Shown here: positions 880 through 9,396 of the stretch, in pieces
Position numbering within the stretch: the stretch's first letter is position 1
How the letters are laid out: each line of letters begins with the position of its first letter
Assembly (NCBI GenBank): GCA_028823235.1
Contig: JAPKBW010000009.1
Location: forward strand, 1 to 64,000
Length of the DNA: 64,000 nucleotides
Direction of reading: 5' to 3'
From: Longimicrobiales bacterium
GTDB lineage: Bacteria; Gemmatimonadota; Gemmatimonadetes; Longimicrobiales; Gaopeijiaceae
Position numbers and translations under genes: made by a program
The notes under the pieces: generated by a model
What the model saw: only the letters and a program-made list of their open reading frames with translations
What the model was told of the DNA's origin: nothing
Database searches by the model: none

Positions 880-2928
880 TCAGGTCGAGAGCACTTCCGC
901 GAGCAGCTCTCCGACACCTGCCGCGTCGTCGTCGGACATCACAATCGGCGGCAGCAACCTGAGTACCGTGCGCCCTGCTGTGAGCGCCAACACTCCCTTC
1001 TCCATGAGCGCGTGCACGTACGGCTTGGCTGGGACTCGGAGTTGGATGCCGATCATCGCGCCGACTCTTCGCACCTCTTTCACGACCTTCAGTTGACGTT
1101 CGATCGTGGGACCACAGATCGCTTCACCGACTCGATTAGCTCCTCCGATGACATCCGGGGCACTAAGCACGTCGAGCGTGGCCGCAGCCGCCGCGCACGA
1201 GAGTGGATTCCCACCGAACGTCGAGCCGTGCTGCCCGAGCTCCAGACCGATCCCCTTCCGTACGACCGTCGCGCCCAGCGGTAGACCGCCAGCAATGCTC
1301 TTCGCTAGGCAGAGGACATCCGGTACCACGCCGGAGTGCTCGAACGCGAAGAGCCGGCCCGTCCGGCCGAAGCCCGTCTGCACCTCATCGAAGACGAGCA
1401 GTGGGCCACGGGAGTCACACGCCTCACGCGCCGCCTGCAGGAACTCGGGGTCAGCCACGTGCACCCCGCCCTCTCCCTGCACCAACTCCAGAACGACGGC
1501 GGCTACCGAGTCATCGATCGCGGCCCCAAGTGCTTCCACATCGTTGTATCGGACACGCCGCACCCCACCCATCAGTGGGCCAAACGGCTCTCGATACCTT
1601 TTCTCAAAGGTCACGGACAGCGAGCCCATCGTTCTGCCGTGAAACGCCCTCAGGCACGAGACAAAGTCCGTCCGACCTGTGTGCGCCCTGGCGATCTTCA
1701 ACGCGGCCTCGACTGACTCGGTCCCTGAGTTCGACAAGAACGTCCGATCCAGCTCTTCGGGGAGCGCCCGGTGGAGTCGTTCTAGAAAACGGGTCCTGAC
1801 CGGAGTCACCAATGCTCCAGGCACGCACCAGACACTCCCGAGCTGCTCAGCTACGGCAGCTTCGAGCACAGGATGGCGATGCCCGAGTACCAGCGATCCG
1901 TTTCCGCCGACGCAGTCTATGTAGTCCCGCCCCGCCGCATCCGTGACGGTCGAACCATTCGCCGAGATGATTGCCAGTCCGCGCTTTCCATACACGTCGA
2001 GTTCGTGCGCAGCATTTCGGTCGACCCATTGTTTGTTCTCTGTCGCTCCGGTCCCAGCGTCGGCCGAGGCATCGCGGCTCGCACCCGGCTCATCGGCAGG
2101 CTCAAGGTCGAGATCGGGCGAAAGCTGGGAGCACCGCACGGTCGTTCCCGCGCCCGCCAGTGCGGCCGACACGGGAGCGGGGGCTCGGCCATCGGCGAGA
2201 TGGTACACCGGCCCGGCTCCGTCACATCCATCAAACAGCGACCGAAGCGCCCGAATTTTCCGCCGCATACGACCAGAAACCCGCCCTTCCCACTCAGGCA
2301 GGTCTCGGGCCTCTATCTCCGGGACCACTGATTCGGGATCTGTAGGGTCGGACAGAAGTCCGACTTCCTCGATGAGTGACACCACATGGGTCGCGTTGAG
2401 CTCGCGCGCGAGAAGGGCCAGCACTTCATCGTTCTCGGTGTTGAGCGCGGTACCGTCCGCTCCCACAATTGGGACGGTCAGTACCGGCACATAGCCGTCA
2501 TCCAGAAGCGTCCGCAGTAACGAGGTGTTGAGTCGCTTTGGCTTCCCGGACTGATCTCGGAGTAGAAACTTCCGCCCGTCGCGACGAATCCGGATGCCCT
2601 CGTTCTGGACGCCCTCCACGAGACCTCCATCGAGCCCGGTGAGGCCGATAGCATTCACGCCGCGCTGGCGAAGGGACTCGACGAGCCGCTTGTTTCTGAT
2701 GCCCGCGTACGACGCGAGCATCACATCGATTGCGTCATCGTCTGACAGTACACTCGTGAAGCCAGAGATCGACTCCACCACCTGAGGCGGCTTCCCTAGG
2801 GCGGTGCCCATTTTATCGCGCAGCTTGTTCGCGCCATGCAGAAGCACAAAGGGTCGCTCGAGTGATGCCAGGTCATCAGCGATCGCCGTGAGGTCCACGT
2901 CACCTCCGCCGACCTTTACGAGAAGCAT
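880..2928 (-). CDS. lysZJ: fused [LysW]-aminoadipate/glutamate kinase and [LysW]-semialdehyde aminotransferase (LysZ-LysJ)
   Basis: A two-domain 682-aa enzyme. Residues 1 to about 265 are an amino-acid kinase of the ArgB/LysZ type (start MLLVKVGGG, then the LLHGANK segment). A 30-residue acidic, low-complexity linker follows. The rest is a class III PLP aminotransferase of the ArgD/LysJ type, with motifs SNSGTESVEAALK and DEVQTGFGRTG and the PLP lysine in CLAKSIAGG. The two halves would catalyse the phosphorylation and transamination steps on the carrier-bound substrate; LysY acts between them. The ATG at 2928 is preferred over upstream starts because GGAGGAG lies just before it and the kinase fold starts there. 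It overlaps the amidotransferase stop by 13 nt. Kinase and aminotransferase are usually separate genes. Lysine versus ornithine/arginine specificity cannot be read here. Confidence 0.88.
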   Translation of the reverse strand: MLLVKVGGGDVDLTAIADDLASLERPFVLLHGANKLRDKMGTALGKPPQVVESISGFTSVLSDDDAIDVMLASYAGIRNKRLVESLRQRGVNAIGLTGLDGGLVEGVQNEGIRIRRDGRKFLLRDQSGKPKRLNTSLLRTLLDDGYVPVLTVPIVGADGTALNTENDEVLALLARELNATHVVSLIEEVGLLSDPTDPESVVPEIEARDLPEWEGRVSGRMRRKIRALRSLFDGCDGAGPVYHLADGRAPAPVSAALAGAGTTVRCSQLSPDLDLEPADEPGASRDASADAGTGATENKQWVDRNAAHELDVYGKRGLAIISANGSTVTDAAGRDYIDCVGGNGSLVLGHRHPVLEAAVAEQLGSVWCVPGALVTPVRTRFLERLHRALPEELDRTFLSNSGTESVEAALKIARAHTGRTDFVSCLRAFHGRTMGSLSVTFEKRYREPFGPLMGGVRRVRYNDVEALGAAIDDSVAAVVLELVQGEGGVHVADPEFLQAAREACDSRGPLLVFDEVQTGFGRTGRLFAFEHSGVVPDVLCLAKSIAGGLPLGATVVRKGIGLELGQHGSTFGGNPLSCAAAAATLDVLSAPDVIGGANRVGEAICGPTIERQLKVVKEVRRVGAMIGIQLRVPAKPYVHALMEKGVLALTAGRTVLRLLPPIVMSDDDAAGVGELLAEVLST

Positions 2929-3599
2929 GGTGCTCCTCCCTGCAGTCGGAAGGTGGAGCCGTTCTCGACACCGACCCACTCGGGAGACGCCTCGGCCGTG
3001 CCGATTTGTTCGGAGCAGACCAGGCGAATACCCGGACCCTGGCTCAATTCCGCACGGTGCAGCGTAAAATAGTCAGGATCTTCCGAGTACCTGCCATGGA
3101 CGTACAAATCCTGTCCGTCACTCACCACAAGGTTGAGGGCGCGCACATACTCCGAGCGAGTGGTGATGACTCCGTCGAGACGCCGCAGCGCCGCCTCAAT
3201 ATCGCCGCCCGCTCCCTCGGCAAAGCGCATGAGAAGGCGCTGAAGACGCGCGGCGCCAGTCGCACCCGGAGTGGACAGCCGGACACCCCGCAGCTCCCCG
3301 TTGAAGGCGAACGCGACCTCATCCTCCATGAACGGCATGTTGTTTTCGACTACGATGCCCTCATTACGAAATGCACTGCGGGCGTGGATGACGGCCAATG
3401 AGGTGGGTGGTAACACGAACGCGGATTCCCATATGGGCTCGACTGACCGGTACCGCTGCCACCGTCCACGCTCCCGCCAGGCGACGCCCCAGCCGTGTCC
3501 CTGATACTCGGTGCTCGACTCGCAGGCGTCGGAGAAGGACTGAATCCACGGACCGACCGCGATTGGCTCGTCCGCTTTAATCGCAAAAATACGACACAT
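2916..3599 (-). CDS. class II glutamine amidotransferase-like Ntn hydrolase (YafJ/EgtC type) in the LysW operon
   Basis: 227 aa. The family hallmarks are intact: Cys2 after the initiator Met (MCRIFAI), GHGWGVAW at 35-41, HAR at 72-74, the NNMPF region at 86-90 and the oxyanion-hole pair N100-G101. The fold hydrolyses the gamma-amide of glutamine, or in EgtC a gamma-glutamyl amide of a larger substrate. No synthase domain or ammonia-accepting partner lies beside it. It is the fourth gene of the operon, 8 nt after argC/lysY and overlapping lysZJ. Since LysW carries its substrate on the gamma-carboxyl of the terminal Glu, release of the product could be its job; this is inference. A general glutaminase role is the alternative. 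Confidence 0.85.
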   Translation of the reverse strand: MCRIFAIKADEPIAVGPWIQSFSDACESSTEYQGHGWGVAWRERGRWQRYRSVEPIWESAFVLPPTSLAVIHARSAFRNEGIVVENNMPFMEDEVAFAFNGELRGVRLSTPGATGAARLQRLLMRFAEGAGGDIEAALRRLDGVITTRSEYVRALNLVVSDGQDLYVHGRYSEDPDYFTLHRAELSQGPGIRLVCSEQIGTAEASPEWVGVENGSTFRLQGGAPCFS

Positions 3600-3607
3600 A
3601 TCAGCAC

Positions 3608-4645
3608 TCAGACCGGGTGCAGGCCGGGGAAGCTCAAGCCAGCAGTCTCATCCCACCCCATCATGAGATTCATGGCCTGAACCGCCTGTCCGGCGGATCC
3701 ACGCACCAGATTGTCGATGGCCGCTACGACGACGAGTCGGTTGGAGCGCGGGTCGAGCTCGAAGCCGATGTCACAGAAATTCGTGCCAGCCAGAAGCTTG
3801 GGCTCGGGGAACCGATAAGGACCGGACCGCTCCGACACGAGTCGCACGAAGGGCTCTTCAGCATACCGCTCACGGTAGAGGCGCCACACGTCTCGCTGAG
3901 TCAGGGCCTCATTCAGGAATACGTGTGCCAGCACCGCCGCCCCACGCACCATGTCGATGGCGGACACGCTCATGTGCACCTGAGCCGATCCCGAGCGACC
4001 GAGCGCCGCTTCGATTTCTGCGGCGTGACGATGCCCCGTCGCCTTGTACGGTCGGACCACGCCCGACCGCACGGGATGATGAGAGCCCGCGTTTGGGACT
4101 GCCCCACCCTCACTGGACCCGACCTTTACGTCGAGCACGGTGCGATCTCGGTGGACGACCCCAGCCTCGAACAGTGGAAGAAGTGCAAGGATGGATACCG
4201 TGGCGTTGCACCCACCCGTCGCGACGCGCTCCGCACCACGAAGTGCCTCCCGATTCAGTTCGGGCAGACCGTAGATGAACGTGGGCAGTAGGTCCGGTCG
4301 AGGATGAGTCCCGTAGTGCTCCTCATACAGAGAGATATCGTCTAGGCGGAAGTCCGCGCTCATGTCGACGATGCGGTCCGCTCGTCCCGACAGATCATCC
4401 CAGCGCTCGGAGGCTTCCCCGTGCGGCAGCCCGAGAAAGAGAACGTCACTGTGGGGGACGTCCTCCGGAGCGCAGAATGTCAGATCGGTCGAGCCACGTA
4501 GATTCGGATGAGCCTTGCTTACCGGCCGCCCCGCCAGCCGTCGCGACGTCACCCCCGCCACAGTGACTTCCGGGTGGGCCAGCAGCAGCCGCAGCAATTC
4601 CCCGCCGCCATAGCCCGAGCCTCCAAGGATCGACACGTGGGTCAT
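3608..4645 (-). CDS. lysY: N-acetyl-gamma-glutamyl-phosphate reductase family protein (ArgC/LysY)
   Basis: 345 aa, the normal family length. It begins with a Rossmann NADP motif (GGSGYGGGEL), has the catalytic cysteine in GGCNATVS and the histidine-rich HHPVRSG/HRHAAEI segments of this reductase. In LysW systems this enzyme reduces the carrier-bound acyl phosphate to the semialdehyde. The ATG at 4645 overlaps the lysX stop as ATGA, which settles the start over an in-frame codon 18 nt upstream. The LysY assignment rests on the operon; by sequence alone it could equally be called argC. Confidence 0.88.
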   Translation of the reverse strand: MTHVSILGGSGYGGGELLRLLLAHPEVTVAGVTSRRLAGRPVSKAHPNLRGSTDLTFCAPEDVPHSDVLFLGLPHGEASERWDDLSGRADRIVDMSADFRLDDISLYEEHYGTHPRPDLLPTFIYGLPELNREALRGAERVATGGCNATVSILALLPLFEAGVVHRDRTVLDVKVGSSEGGAVPNAGSHHPVRSGVVRPYKATGHRHAAEIEAALGRSGSAQVHMSVSAIDMVRGAAVLAHVFLNEALTQRDVWRLYRERYAEEPFVRLVSERSGPYRFPEPKLLAGTNFCDIGFELDPRSNRLVVVAAIDNLVRGSAGQAVQAMNLMMGWDETAGLSFPGLHPV

Positions 4646-5544
4646 TCGTGCACGCCTCCGCACATACCGAGCACGGCTGCGGCCATCAGACCTGGAATGT
4701 CCACGCCGGTTGAGTCGACTGAGTTCCGAAACTCCATCGTCGCGTTGACCTCGTTGACTTGATAACCGTCGCTGGTCTCGAACAGGTCAACCGCGACCAT
4801 ACCACCGCCAACCGCGTGCGCGGCTGCCACCGAGGTCGCTGCGAGGTCGGCATCGACCTCGCGCCCCTCGGCCGAAGCACCAAGCGCTGTGTTCGTCCGC
4901 CAGCCGGTGGAGCGACGGGTGATTGCCGCAACACAGCGATCGCCGATCACGAAGGCTCGGACGTCGCTGCCACCGGTCTCGACGAACCTTTGTAGATAGG
5001 TGACCGCATGCGGTGCACCGCCGATGGCCTCCTTATGCTCGAGGGCCAGCTCGAGTGCATCACGATCATTCACTTTCCCGATCAGGCGCCCCCACGACCC
5101 GATCACTGGCTTCACCACGAGCGGATATCCGATCTCGGCGGCGGCCGCGAGTCCGGACTCGGGTGCGAACGCAATCGACGCACTGAGCGTGGCCACCTCG
5201 GCTGCGAGGAGCGCAATCGTAGTCCGTGCCTTGTCACCACAGGTCTCGATCACCTGGCCCGAGTTCACGGGACGCCCACCACAGCTCTCGAGCCAATGGG
5301 CCAGCACAGCGTTTCTCCACTGGCTCTTTGAGCGAAGAAGAACTGCATCACACACCGGGATCACGGAAGGCCAGCTAGCAAGATCTCCACCGATCCGACG
5401 GTCATCGACCACGGTCAGCTCGACCCCACGAGCCACAAAGGCCTGCCTGAGCATTTTTTCCTCAGGCCGCAGCCCCGAGCACACGAGGACGACAGACGGG
5501 CCGGGCGACCCGGGCGCACCCCGTCCCTCAGTCGCCTCGGTCAC
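4642..5544 (-). CDS. lysX: LysW-substrate ligase, ATP-grasp (LysX/ArgX, RimK-like)
   Basis: 300 aa ATP-grasp ligase. It shows the nucleotide-binding lysine in YPLVVKPVIGSWGR, the QRFVE strand and the metal-binding NEVNATMEF segment that is typical of LysX. It attaches alpha-aminoadipate (lysine route) or glutamate (ornithine/arginine route) to the gamma-carboxyl of the C-terminal glutamate of LysW. The GTG start overlaps the lysW stop (TAGTG) and lies directly after a GGGGTGAG stretch that can act as ribosome-binding site. I cannot assign the substrate from the residues visible. Confidence 0.88.
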   Translation of the reverse strand: MTEATEGRGAPGSPGPSVVLVCSGLRPEEKMLRQAFVARGVELTVVDDRRIGGDLASWPSVIPVCDAVLLRSKSQWRNAVLAHWLESCGGRPVNSGQVIETCGDKARTTIALLAAEVATLSASIAFAPESGLAAAAEIGYPLVVKPVIGSWGRLIGKVNDRDALELALEHKEAIGGAPHAVTYLQRFVETGGSDVRAFVIGDRCVAAITRRSTGWRTNTALGASAEGREVDADLAATSVAAAHAVGGGMVAVDLFETSDGYQVNEVNATMEFRNSVDSTGVDIPGLMAAAVLGMCGGVHE

Positions 5545-5726
5545 TACTCACCCCAGTCCTCGGCGGACATGGGAGCCTCGGCGAGCACAATGGTGGGAAG
5601 AAGTTGCGTGACTTCCAGCTCACAACCGCAGTCGTCGCAGTCGATCAGCTCACCCAACATCGCGTCGGACGGTGCGTCGAGGGCGCCCGCGCAGACGGGA
5701 CATTCAAGAGAGGTGGCAACAGACAT
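5544..5726 (-). CDS. lysW: amino-group carrier protein LysW
   Basis: A 60-aa acidic protein. Two CxxC pairs (C9/C12 and C30/C33) form the zinc site, and it ends in the diagnostic EDWGE tail whose last glutamate is the covalent attachment point. The ATG at 5726 is chosen because GGAG lies about 6 nt upstream and the family starts just before the first CxxC; a GTG 24 nt upstream would add an unconserved leader. First gene of the operon, opposite the ACT regulator. Confidence 0.93.
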   Translation of the reverse strand: MSVATSLECPVCAGALDAPSDAMLGELIDCDDCGCELEVTQLLPTIVLAEAPMSAEDWGE

Positions 5727-5794
5727 CGGAGGCTCCAGTGCAGGATTCACAGTTCATTCGGAGCGGGATGATGGACACAACCGTGACGGACACG

Positions 5795-5850: not shown

Positions 5851-6492
5851 ATGAAAAAAATATCAGACGCGGTCGCGGAGATCGTCGCAAACGACTGGGT
5901 ACTCAAGGTCGGTCTCGCAAAACGGCTCATGAATCTGAGTCAGGTGGCCCGCCACATTCACGCGACGGTCGAGGCACGCACCCAGAAGAGCGTGGAGGGC
6001 GGGGCAATCACCATGGCCCTGTCACGTCTGCGCGACGACCTGCCTCCACTCGATGACAAGCTTGGAATCGGACTGGCCGATCGAGTCACAGTCCAGAGAG
6101 GCTTGGCGGTCCTCACCTTCGCCAACACCCCGGAGGTGCATGTGGGCCTCCTCACACTGCAGCAGCGGGTCCGTGAGCGGGACCGTCACCTGACGCTCAC
6201 AGAGGGCATACGTGAAATCACCCTCATCATCGACGAGAGTCAGCTGGACACTGTCTACAAGACGGTAGGCCGCCGCCCCCAGCGGATCAGTCCGGGAATC
6301 GCGAGCCTCTCGGTCTCACTGACAGAGGAGAATCTCGCGACACCAGGCATCCTCTATCGGCTCCTTCAACCCCTCGCGCTTCAGGGCGTGAACCTCGCGG
6401 AGGTCGCGTCGACGACGAGCGAATTCCACGTCTACATCGATGAGGCTGACGTGATGCTGGCACTCGAATCGTTGTACGCCGCGTTTCGGTGA
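5851..6492 (+). CDS. ACT-domain regulator of amino-acid metabolism (COG2150-like)
   Basis: 213 aa. Residues 1 to about 70 are helical and HTH-like (segment NLSQVARHIHATVE). The C-terminal part (about 140-213) reads as an ACT domain of the aspartokinase type, with pattern LSVSLTEENLATPG, then GVNLAEVAST, then EFHVYIDEAD. ACT domains sense amino acids, so this is a plausible feedback regulator of the divergently transcribed LysW operon; that link is inferred from position. The ATG at 5851 has no clear ribosome-binding site. Confidence 0.7.
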   Translation: MKKISDAVAEIVANDWVLKVGLAKRLMNLSQVARHIHATVEARTQKSVEGGAITMALSRLRDDLPPLDDKLGIGLADRVTVQRGLAVLTFANTPEVHVGLLTLQQRVRERDRHLTLTEGIREITLIIDESQLDTVYKTVGRRPQRISPGIASLSVSLTEENLATPGILYRLLQPLALQGVNLAEVASTTSEFHVYIDEADVMLALESLYAAFR

Positions 6493-8028: not shown

Positions 8029-9396
8029 TCAGCCGGGCGTGTACGCGCCCTGCGAAAGTCGCAGAAGGAAGACCGCTGCAAGCTTCGTTCGGATCTCCAT
8101 CGCCCTGAGATCCAGCGTCTCATCGAAGGAATGGGCCGCCGCCCCCATCCCCCCGATCGCAGCAAGCGCCGCATCGACGTACGGTGCCGCCGACGTGATG
8201 TCCGCACCCCCGAGGCGCATCGGATCGATCACCTCGATCGGGCCGATGCCCATGTCGCGGCTCGCCTGATCGTAGATCGCGTGCAGCCGGTAGTTCGACT
8301 CTCTTGGCGGCATCCCACTGGGCACGCCACGAACTTCTAGCGTCGCGCTCGTGCCGAGAAGATTCCGCGAAGCGATCTCTCTCATGCGAGCGATAACTCG
8401 CTCTCCCTGCTCGGCGGAGATCGTACGCAGATCCCCGGTCACCGTAGCAGTCTCCGCGACGACATTCGTCACGCCGGATGCCTGCCCCGCGTTGCCCGTC
8501 GCGTCACGCTCGACCTCGCTCCCGCCGAGAATGATTCCGGGATTGAAGGTGAGGAATTCCTCCCCCGCGAGTTCCTCCCGGAAACCATCAAGGATTCGAG
8601 CTGCCTCGAAAATCGCACCGTACCCGAGCTCTTCAGTGAAGATTCGAGACGAATGACCGCGCGTCCCGGTCGTTGTCAGAGTCCAGCCAGTACCACCACG
8701 ACGGGCCACAGCGGCCGTCTCGGCAATCTCCAGTCCCTCGAACCCAAGAGCGACGTCCGCCCACTCGGCAGCCGTGACGAGGTCGCCGCGCGCGAGGTCG
8801 CGCGGCGAACCGATGCGCTCTTCATCCCCGATCATCGCGACCGTGAGATTCATCCCACCCAGCAGACCCTCCGACTCCAGGGCCTCCAGCGCCTGCAGCA
8901 TGGCGACCAGTCCGCCCTTCATGTCGGAGACCCCCGGGCCCTTCACCGTCGCTTCATCGATACGCTCATACGTCTGGAATGGGTCCTCCGGGCGAAAGAC
9001 CGTATCCAGGTGACCGATGAGCAGCATTTTCGTTCCCGACCCACGACGCTCAGCAAAGAGATGGCCGGCGCGGCCAAAGCCTGAGCCGTCGATCCAGCGA
9101 ACGTCGAAGCCGAGAGCCTTGAATCGCGGGGTAAGGACGTCAGCCACCTCGCGTACGCCTTGGACGTTCAGCGTATAGCTGTTGAGGTTCGTGAGTTCCT
9201 CGAGCAGCTCGAGCGCCTCGTCGCGATGATCTTCGACCCACGCAGACATCGCGATCTCCGCGGGAACCGCCTGGGCCTGCAGCTCTAACGGAGCCAGACC
9301 GACGCCGACAGCCAAGGCAACAGTCGAAAAAGAGAAGACGCGCCAACTCGGCGAATGGCTCACAACAGACACTGACACAGACGACTCCGATTGCAA
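8029..9396 (-). CDS. secreted M20 metallopeptidase (carboxypeptidase G2-like)
   Basis: 455 aa from a TTG at 9396; nearby GTG codons are alternatives. A signal peptide (hydrophobic core VALAVGVGLAPL, ending near LQAQA) is followed by an M20 catalytic domain. Metal-site motifs visible are LIGHLDTVF, GVSDMKGG, GDEERIGS and the late AAHSFDE. The dimerisation domain contains the TRGHSS segment. It probably trims C-terminal residues from peptides outside the cytoplasm. M20 also includes LysK, but the signal peptide argues against LysK here. Confidence 0.85.
   Translation of the reverse strand: MQSESSVSVSVVSHSPSWRVFSFSTVALAVGVGLAPLELQAQAVPAEIAMSAWVEDHRDEALELLEELTNLNSYTLNVQGVREVADVLTPRFKALGFDVRWIDGSGFGRAGHLFAERRGSGTKMLLIGHLDTVFRPEDPFQTYERIDEATVKGPGVSDMKGGLVAMLQALEALESEGLLGGMNLTVAMIGDEERIGSPRDLARGDLVTAAEWADVALGFEGLEIAETAAVARRGGTGWTLTTTGTRGHSSRIFTEELGYGAIFEAARILDGFREELAGEEFLTFNPGIILGGSEVERDATGNAGQASGVTNVVAETATVTGDLRTISAEQGERVIARMREIASRNLLGTSATLEVRGVPSGMPPRESNYRLHAIYDQASRDMGIGPIEVIDPMRLGGADITSAAPYVDAALAAIGGMGAAAHSFDETLDLRAMEIRTKLAAVFLLRLSQGAYTPG

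Follow-up and report, generated by a model that had tools for sequence, protein, structure and literature searches.

The enzyme known to unload the carrier in LysW operons is LysK, the [LysW]-lysine/ornithine hydrolase (NF003367, TIGR01902), which belongs to the M20 metallopeptidases. A γ-glutamyl amide is also cleaved by EgtC, the γ-glutamyl amidohydrolase of ergothioneine synthesis (TIGR03442; PDB 4zfj, 4zfk and 4zfl), whose fold recurs in YafJ and in the glutamine amidotransferase domains of GlmS and PurF (PF13230). In the literature that we searched, outside which most subscription papers lie, no paper couples LysW with an amidotransferase or an Ntn hydrolase. Here we describe a LysW operon that holds no LysK and encodes an Ntn amidohydrolase of the class II amidotransferase fold.

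The operon lies on the reverse strand of the window, by which we mean the whole analysed stretch of 64,000 nucleotides (positions 1 to 64,000 of contig JAPKBW010000009.1, Longimicrobiales assembly GCA_028823235.1), and its order is LysW-LysX-LysY-Ntn-LysZ/J. The LysW carrier (5544–5750; PF21344) ends in EDWGE and has a GTG at 5750, a start at 5726 fitting its relatives better. Downstream are LysX (4642–5544), an ATP-grasp ligase with the GSWGR motif for the LysW tail; LysY (3608–4645), an ArgC-type reductase; the Ntn gene as the fourth gene (2916–3599); and a fusion of LysZ, an amino acid kinase, with LysJ, a class III aminotransferase (880–2928; the longest ORF runs from GTG 2979, with ATG 2928 the likely start). 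LysZ and LysJ, one ORF here, are separate genes in most relatives. The EDWGE tail, the GSWGR motif and the presence of LysY, LysZ and LysJ in one operon identify the LysW amino-group carrier pathway, and ORF calls and profile matches confirmed the gene content given in the initial annotation, including the absence of LysK. Start and stop codons overlap at LysW/LysX, LysX/LysY and Ntn/LysZ, consistent with translational coupling. An ACT-domain protein encoded divergently on the forward strand (5851–6492) is probably an amino acid-sensing regulator of the operon; elsewhere in the Ntn lineage, ten operons have a homologue of it next to LysW (L170, L186, L192, L195, L203, L205, L206, L259, L260 and L261). 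By the end of the operon, positions 265–639 hold a tRNA-Lys followed by an ORF resembling the C-terminal part of a tyrosine recombinase (HKTEAVYRRY), a possible trace of an integrated element.

The Ntn gene is an intact ORF of 227 amino acids with an ATG start. Its product matched Pfam GATase_4 (PF13230) at 26.0 bits, above the cut-off of 23, and has a Cys directly after the Met and an Asn-Gly oxyanion pair, which place it among the Ntn enzymes of the class II amidotransferase fold. The EgtC model TIGR03442 gave 28.6 bits, far under its equivalog cut-off of 218.65, and matched all 18 aligned family members weakly throughout (best E-value 5.2e-14); this score, together with the missing Asp of the TVDSA motif, rules out membership of EgtC itself. 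No M20 model matched the protein, those of the LysK family (NF003367 and TIGR01902) included. The predicted structure (pLDDT 86.4, pTM 0.86) had EgtC as its top match (Z 22.9, rmsd 2.3 over 196 residues), followed by PurF and GlmS at Z of about 20. Cys2 was found in 68 of 68 homologues, the other three of the 71 being truncated, and His72, Arg74, Asn100 and Gly101 were invariant over all 71. The intact class II amidotransferase-like hydrolase with an EgtC-like fold that had been proposed for this ORF therefore stands, with its active-site residues as originally placed. A phage search without a match ruled out a phage origin of the gene. Homologues on plasmids of Streptomyces and Azospirillum are annotated class II amidotransferases with no LysW nearby.

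A scan of a genome collection with the Ntn protein of the window returned 19 relatives at 37–44% identity, in assemblies labelled mostly Gammaproteobacteria or Proteobacteria. LysW, LysX, LysY and Ntn stood in this order at 16 of the 19 loci, and the remaining three relatives adjoin LysY or LysZ-LysJ; distant Gammaproteobacteria and a third lineage thus share the gene order W-X-Y-Ntn-Z-J, without LysK, in relatives of only 37–46% identity. Because the scan used Ntn as the query, we ran repeat searches driven by LysW, which are free of this bias. In one gammaproteobacterial class, 5 of 369 genomes carried LysW, and all five had the Ntn operon. In the class of genome G006, LysW was present in 15 of 40 genomes and Ntn in each of the ten in which the Y-Z junction was covered. 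Several operons of this class have a homocitrate synthase-like gene between LysW and LysX; the protein from locus L256 scored 332 bits against TIGR02146, under the equivalog cut-off of 413.55, and slightly higher against a 2-isopropylmalate synthase subfamily model. One assembly labelled Caldisericaceae (L048; 4.0 Mb) groups with the operons having such a gene, and its label may be wrong. The published locus of Caldithrix abyssi, LysWXZYJ-Hcs, likewise names no LysK (PMC5317091) and fits the pattern of LysK-less operons. Conservation of the gene in other LysW operons, on which the initial annotation had staked its reading, was thus found in three distant lineages.

We searched the identical 395 genomes of the window's phylum for Ntn, LysW (PF21344) and LysK (TIGR01902). 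Ntn was detected in 40 genomes, LysK over its cut-off in three and both together in none. In the fetched regions, 43 of the 395 genomes had a LysW-LysX operon: 40 with Ntn and no LysK, and three with the order W-X-Y-Z-J-LysK and no Ntn. This is the pattern that the initial annotation had suggested looking for in a co-occurrence survey, and none of the 395 genomes had LysX with neither Ntn nor LysK. A Fisher test of Ntn against the LysW-LysX operon over the 395 genomes, with kinship ignored, gave 1e-51. Most of the genomes are draft assemblies and a few operons among the 40 are split between contigs; the single-contig Ntn genomes are G036, G077 and G089. In the two-contig assembly G180, LysW-X-Y and Ntn lie on separate contigs (L183 and L184), and no LysZ or LysJ was found beside either. 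LysW-like matches with neither Ntn nor LysK in G312, G116, G196 and G345 were rejected as LysW operons; tblastn found no LysX or LysY in these genomes, and the matches are therefore LysW-like zinc ribbons. Three loci with no LysX nearby (L216:5850-6023, L217:7086-7259 and L218:6402-6578) encode small LysW-like zinc ribbons with the endings EEEWE, LDWD or EEWD, which may be carriers of a different type or may be unrelated.

In a LysX-Y-Z tree rooted with the Deinococcus LysK operon, the Ntn and LysK operons fell on opposite sides of one branch (support 100/100). The swap therefore counts as one event, and the ratio of 40 to 3 does not represent 43 independent events. Operons of the window's phylum formed three separate groups within the Ntn side of the tree, which suggests that the cassette moved as a unit.

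A cytoplasmic LysK orthologue elsewhere in the genome had been named at the outset as evidence that would count against carrier release by the Ntn protein, and the one M20 gene near the operon (8029–9396) had been set aside as a poor LysK candidate with a signal peptide. That gene has a signal peptide-like start and scored far under the LysK cut-off. Over the full genome of 3.14 Mb, which is 97% complete, the top-scoring M20 protein reached 89.5 bits with the LysK model against a cut-off of 363. TIGR01902 exceeded its cut-off in none of 20 Ntn genomes, namely that of the window and the 19 found via the Ntn protein, and LysK did so in none of the 40 phylum genomes carrying the Ntn gene. These searches of the window's own genome and of all Ntn genomes rule out a misannotated or overlooked LysK at curated cut-offs.

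The last residue of LysW provides a further line of evidence. Among 75 complete sequences, 61 ended in Glu and 14 in Gln, with no other residue at this position and EDWG before it throughout. The 14 Gln-ending carriers (L045:7960-8130, L046:7910-8113 and L047:7942-8115; further loci L192, L195, L203, L205, L206, L226, L248, L249, L253, L255 and L259) were confined to the Ntn lineage, with five in the window's own phylum, four in gammaproteobacterial genomes and five in the class of G006; for one of the 14, the contig is not long enough to reveal the Ntn gene. Glu is the last residue of LysW in Deinococcus and in the three LysK operons. The ending changed between Glu and Gln at least six times on the tree, and no second LysW over the family cut-off accompanied a Gln-ending one in the genomes searched. 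In Natrinema ArgW, Glu54 is essential, as the Glu54Ala substitution abolishes arginine synthesis (PMC10433800). Since a Gln side chain offers LysX no γ-carboxyl, and in view of the essential Glu54, Gln-ending carriers must be deamidated to work, and the operon's own glutaminase-fold Ntn enzyme is the obvious candidate for the deamidase. The restriction of Gln-ending LysW to Ntn lineages lends independent support to carrier release by this enzyme.

In GlmS and PurF, the Asp of the T-D-S/T-E motif holds the free α-amino group of the substrate and an Arg holds its α-carboxylate. The Asp is found at this position in GlmS, YafJ and two further class II enzymes (including 3mdn), and the EgtC sequence has TVDSA. 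In 71 of 71 LysW-operon Ntn proteins, the position is occupied by Gly115, followed by Ala, and the family has neither the TVDSA Asp of EgtC nor the Asp of class II enzymes acting on free glutamine. With Arg74 and the lost Asp assigned their roles by homology to GlmS and PurF rather than from a co-structure, loss of the Asp and retention of the Arg point to a substrate whose carboxylate is free and whose amino group is blocked, as in the C-terminal Glu or Gln of a protein. This prediction preceded the alignment with GlmS and YafJ, the invariant Gly being already visible by then, and we found no papers naming the Gln-binding Arg or Asp in the literature searched. On these sequence comparisons, activity on free glutamine alone is disfavoured, because the amino-binding Asp is an invariant Gly.

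We infer that the Ntn protein is, with high probability, a LysW-specific γ-glutamyl amidohydrolase, which both unloads the carrier and brings Gln-ending carriers to maturity. Conservation of the cassette, mutual exclusion with LysK, the Gln-ending carriers and the substrate-pocket residues, with Gly in place of Asp, argue for this replacement of LysK and so favour the non-homologous carrier-release hydrolase of the initial annotation. In the proposed scheme, LysX would join the α-amino group of glutamate or α-aminoadipate to the γ-carboxyl of the terminal Glu of LysW, and LysZ, LysY and LysJ would convert the bound amino acid to LysW-γ-ornithine or LysW-γ-lysine. Cys2 of the Ntn enzyme would then attack the terminal γ-glutamyl amide and release the amino acid, and hydrolysis of the acyl-enzyme would free LysW, the enzyme taking on the task of LysK without homology to it. 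With an unsubstituted amide as substrate and NH3 as the leaving group, Gln-ending LysW would be converted to the chargeable Glu form. We propose such a dual role, in which the unloading enzyme also deamidates the inactive Gln-ending pro-carrier of some lineages, as reasonably probable.

Alternatively, an M20 deacylase of the ArgE/DapE family encoded elsewhere might release the product, with Ntn an accessory glutaminase supplying ammonia or glutamate. The genome of the window (G000) has 33 M20-family matches, among them a cytoplasmic-looking ArgE/DapE-family deacylase (C6:174642) that scored 222.5 bits with TIGR01910, just over the cut-off, and 89.7 with the LysK model; no arginine or lysine genes were recognised among its neighbours, which were read by eye. 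ArgE/DapE-like M20 proteins are also present in many gammaproteobacterial Ntn genomes. However, no Ntn operon examined holds a LysK-like M20 gene and every LysK-type operon is without Ntn, the pathway has no need of an ammonia donor, the Ntn family has lost the Asp that class II enzymes using free glutamine retain and the Gln-ending carriers would be left unexplained, and we regard this division of labour as improbable. It is less plausible still that the protein acts solely in carrier maturation, turning LysW-Gln into LysW-Glu while something else releases the product. Class II amidotransferase domains are glutaminases and the 14 Gln-ending LysW would supply a substrate, but the 61 others, that of the window included, already end in Glu, and Glu-ending operons, the LysK ones aside, keep Ntn with all of its catalytic residues and without LysK. 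We give similarly little credence to a transamidase that recycles the carrier by passing LysW from ornithine or lysine straight to a new glutamate or aminoadipate, in the manner of acetyl recycling by ArgJ. Ntn acyl-enzymes can hand their acyl group to amines, as γ-glutamyltranspeptidase is generally known to do, yet LysX is present in every complete operon, although recycling would make it nearly dispensable.

For the operon of the window, ornithine for arginine synthesis is the most likely product to be released by the proposed amidohydrolase, since the genome lacks ArgJ, encodes an ornithine carbamoyltransferase and gave only one ArgC-family match, namely LysY of the operon. The lack of ArgJ extends to 39 of the 40 phylum Ntn genomes but also to three genomes of the same genus without the operon, and is therefore weak evidence by itself. 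The LysX loop is of the GWRTNTALG type in the window and its closest relatives and reads HWITNTARG in the Deinococcus lysine operon and most Ntn operons; the GWRTNTALG type perhaps marks a switch from aminoadipate to glutamate. In most gammaproteobacterial Ntn genomes (L043-L061; G001-G019), ArgJ and a second ArgC accompany the LysW-Ntn operon, which is therefore probably not for arginine there. Where a homocitrate synthase-like gene is part of the operon, it points to lysine as the product.

If the proposed function is correct, many uncultured bacteria whose LysW lysine/ornithine pathway seems incomplete would have its last step accounted for, with LysK replaced by a non-homologous enzyme and the C-terminal residue of a protein as the target of an enzyme of the class II amidotransferase fold. 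Carriers ending in Gln offer a direct test of the hypothesis. The Ntn protein and LysK have the same proposed reaction and place in the pathway, and both are encoded in LysW operons; LysK has a metal-dependent M20 fold and chemistry, whereas the Ntn protein relies on an N-terminal Cys and is unrelated. The LysK gene lies at the operon end and the Ntn gene between LysY and LysZ, and the two never occurred together in the genomes examined. EgtC, the closest solved fold, has the N-terminal Cys, the Arg and the Asn-Gly pair in common with the Ntn protein, which differs in sequence (about 20% identity), in lacking the Asp of TVDSA and in its LysW operon context. The fold and the Cys2, HxR and NG motifs are likewise those of YafJ and of the GlmS and PurF domains, but the Ntn protein has x-G-A-E/A in place of T-D-S/T-E, FNG in place of HNG and no synthase domain.
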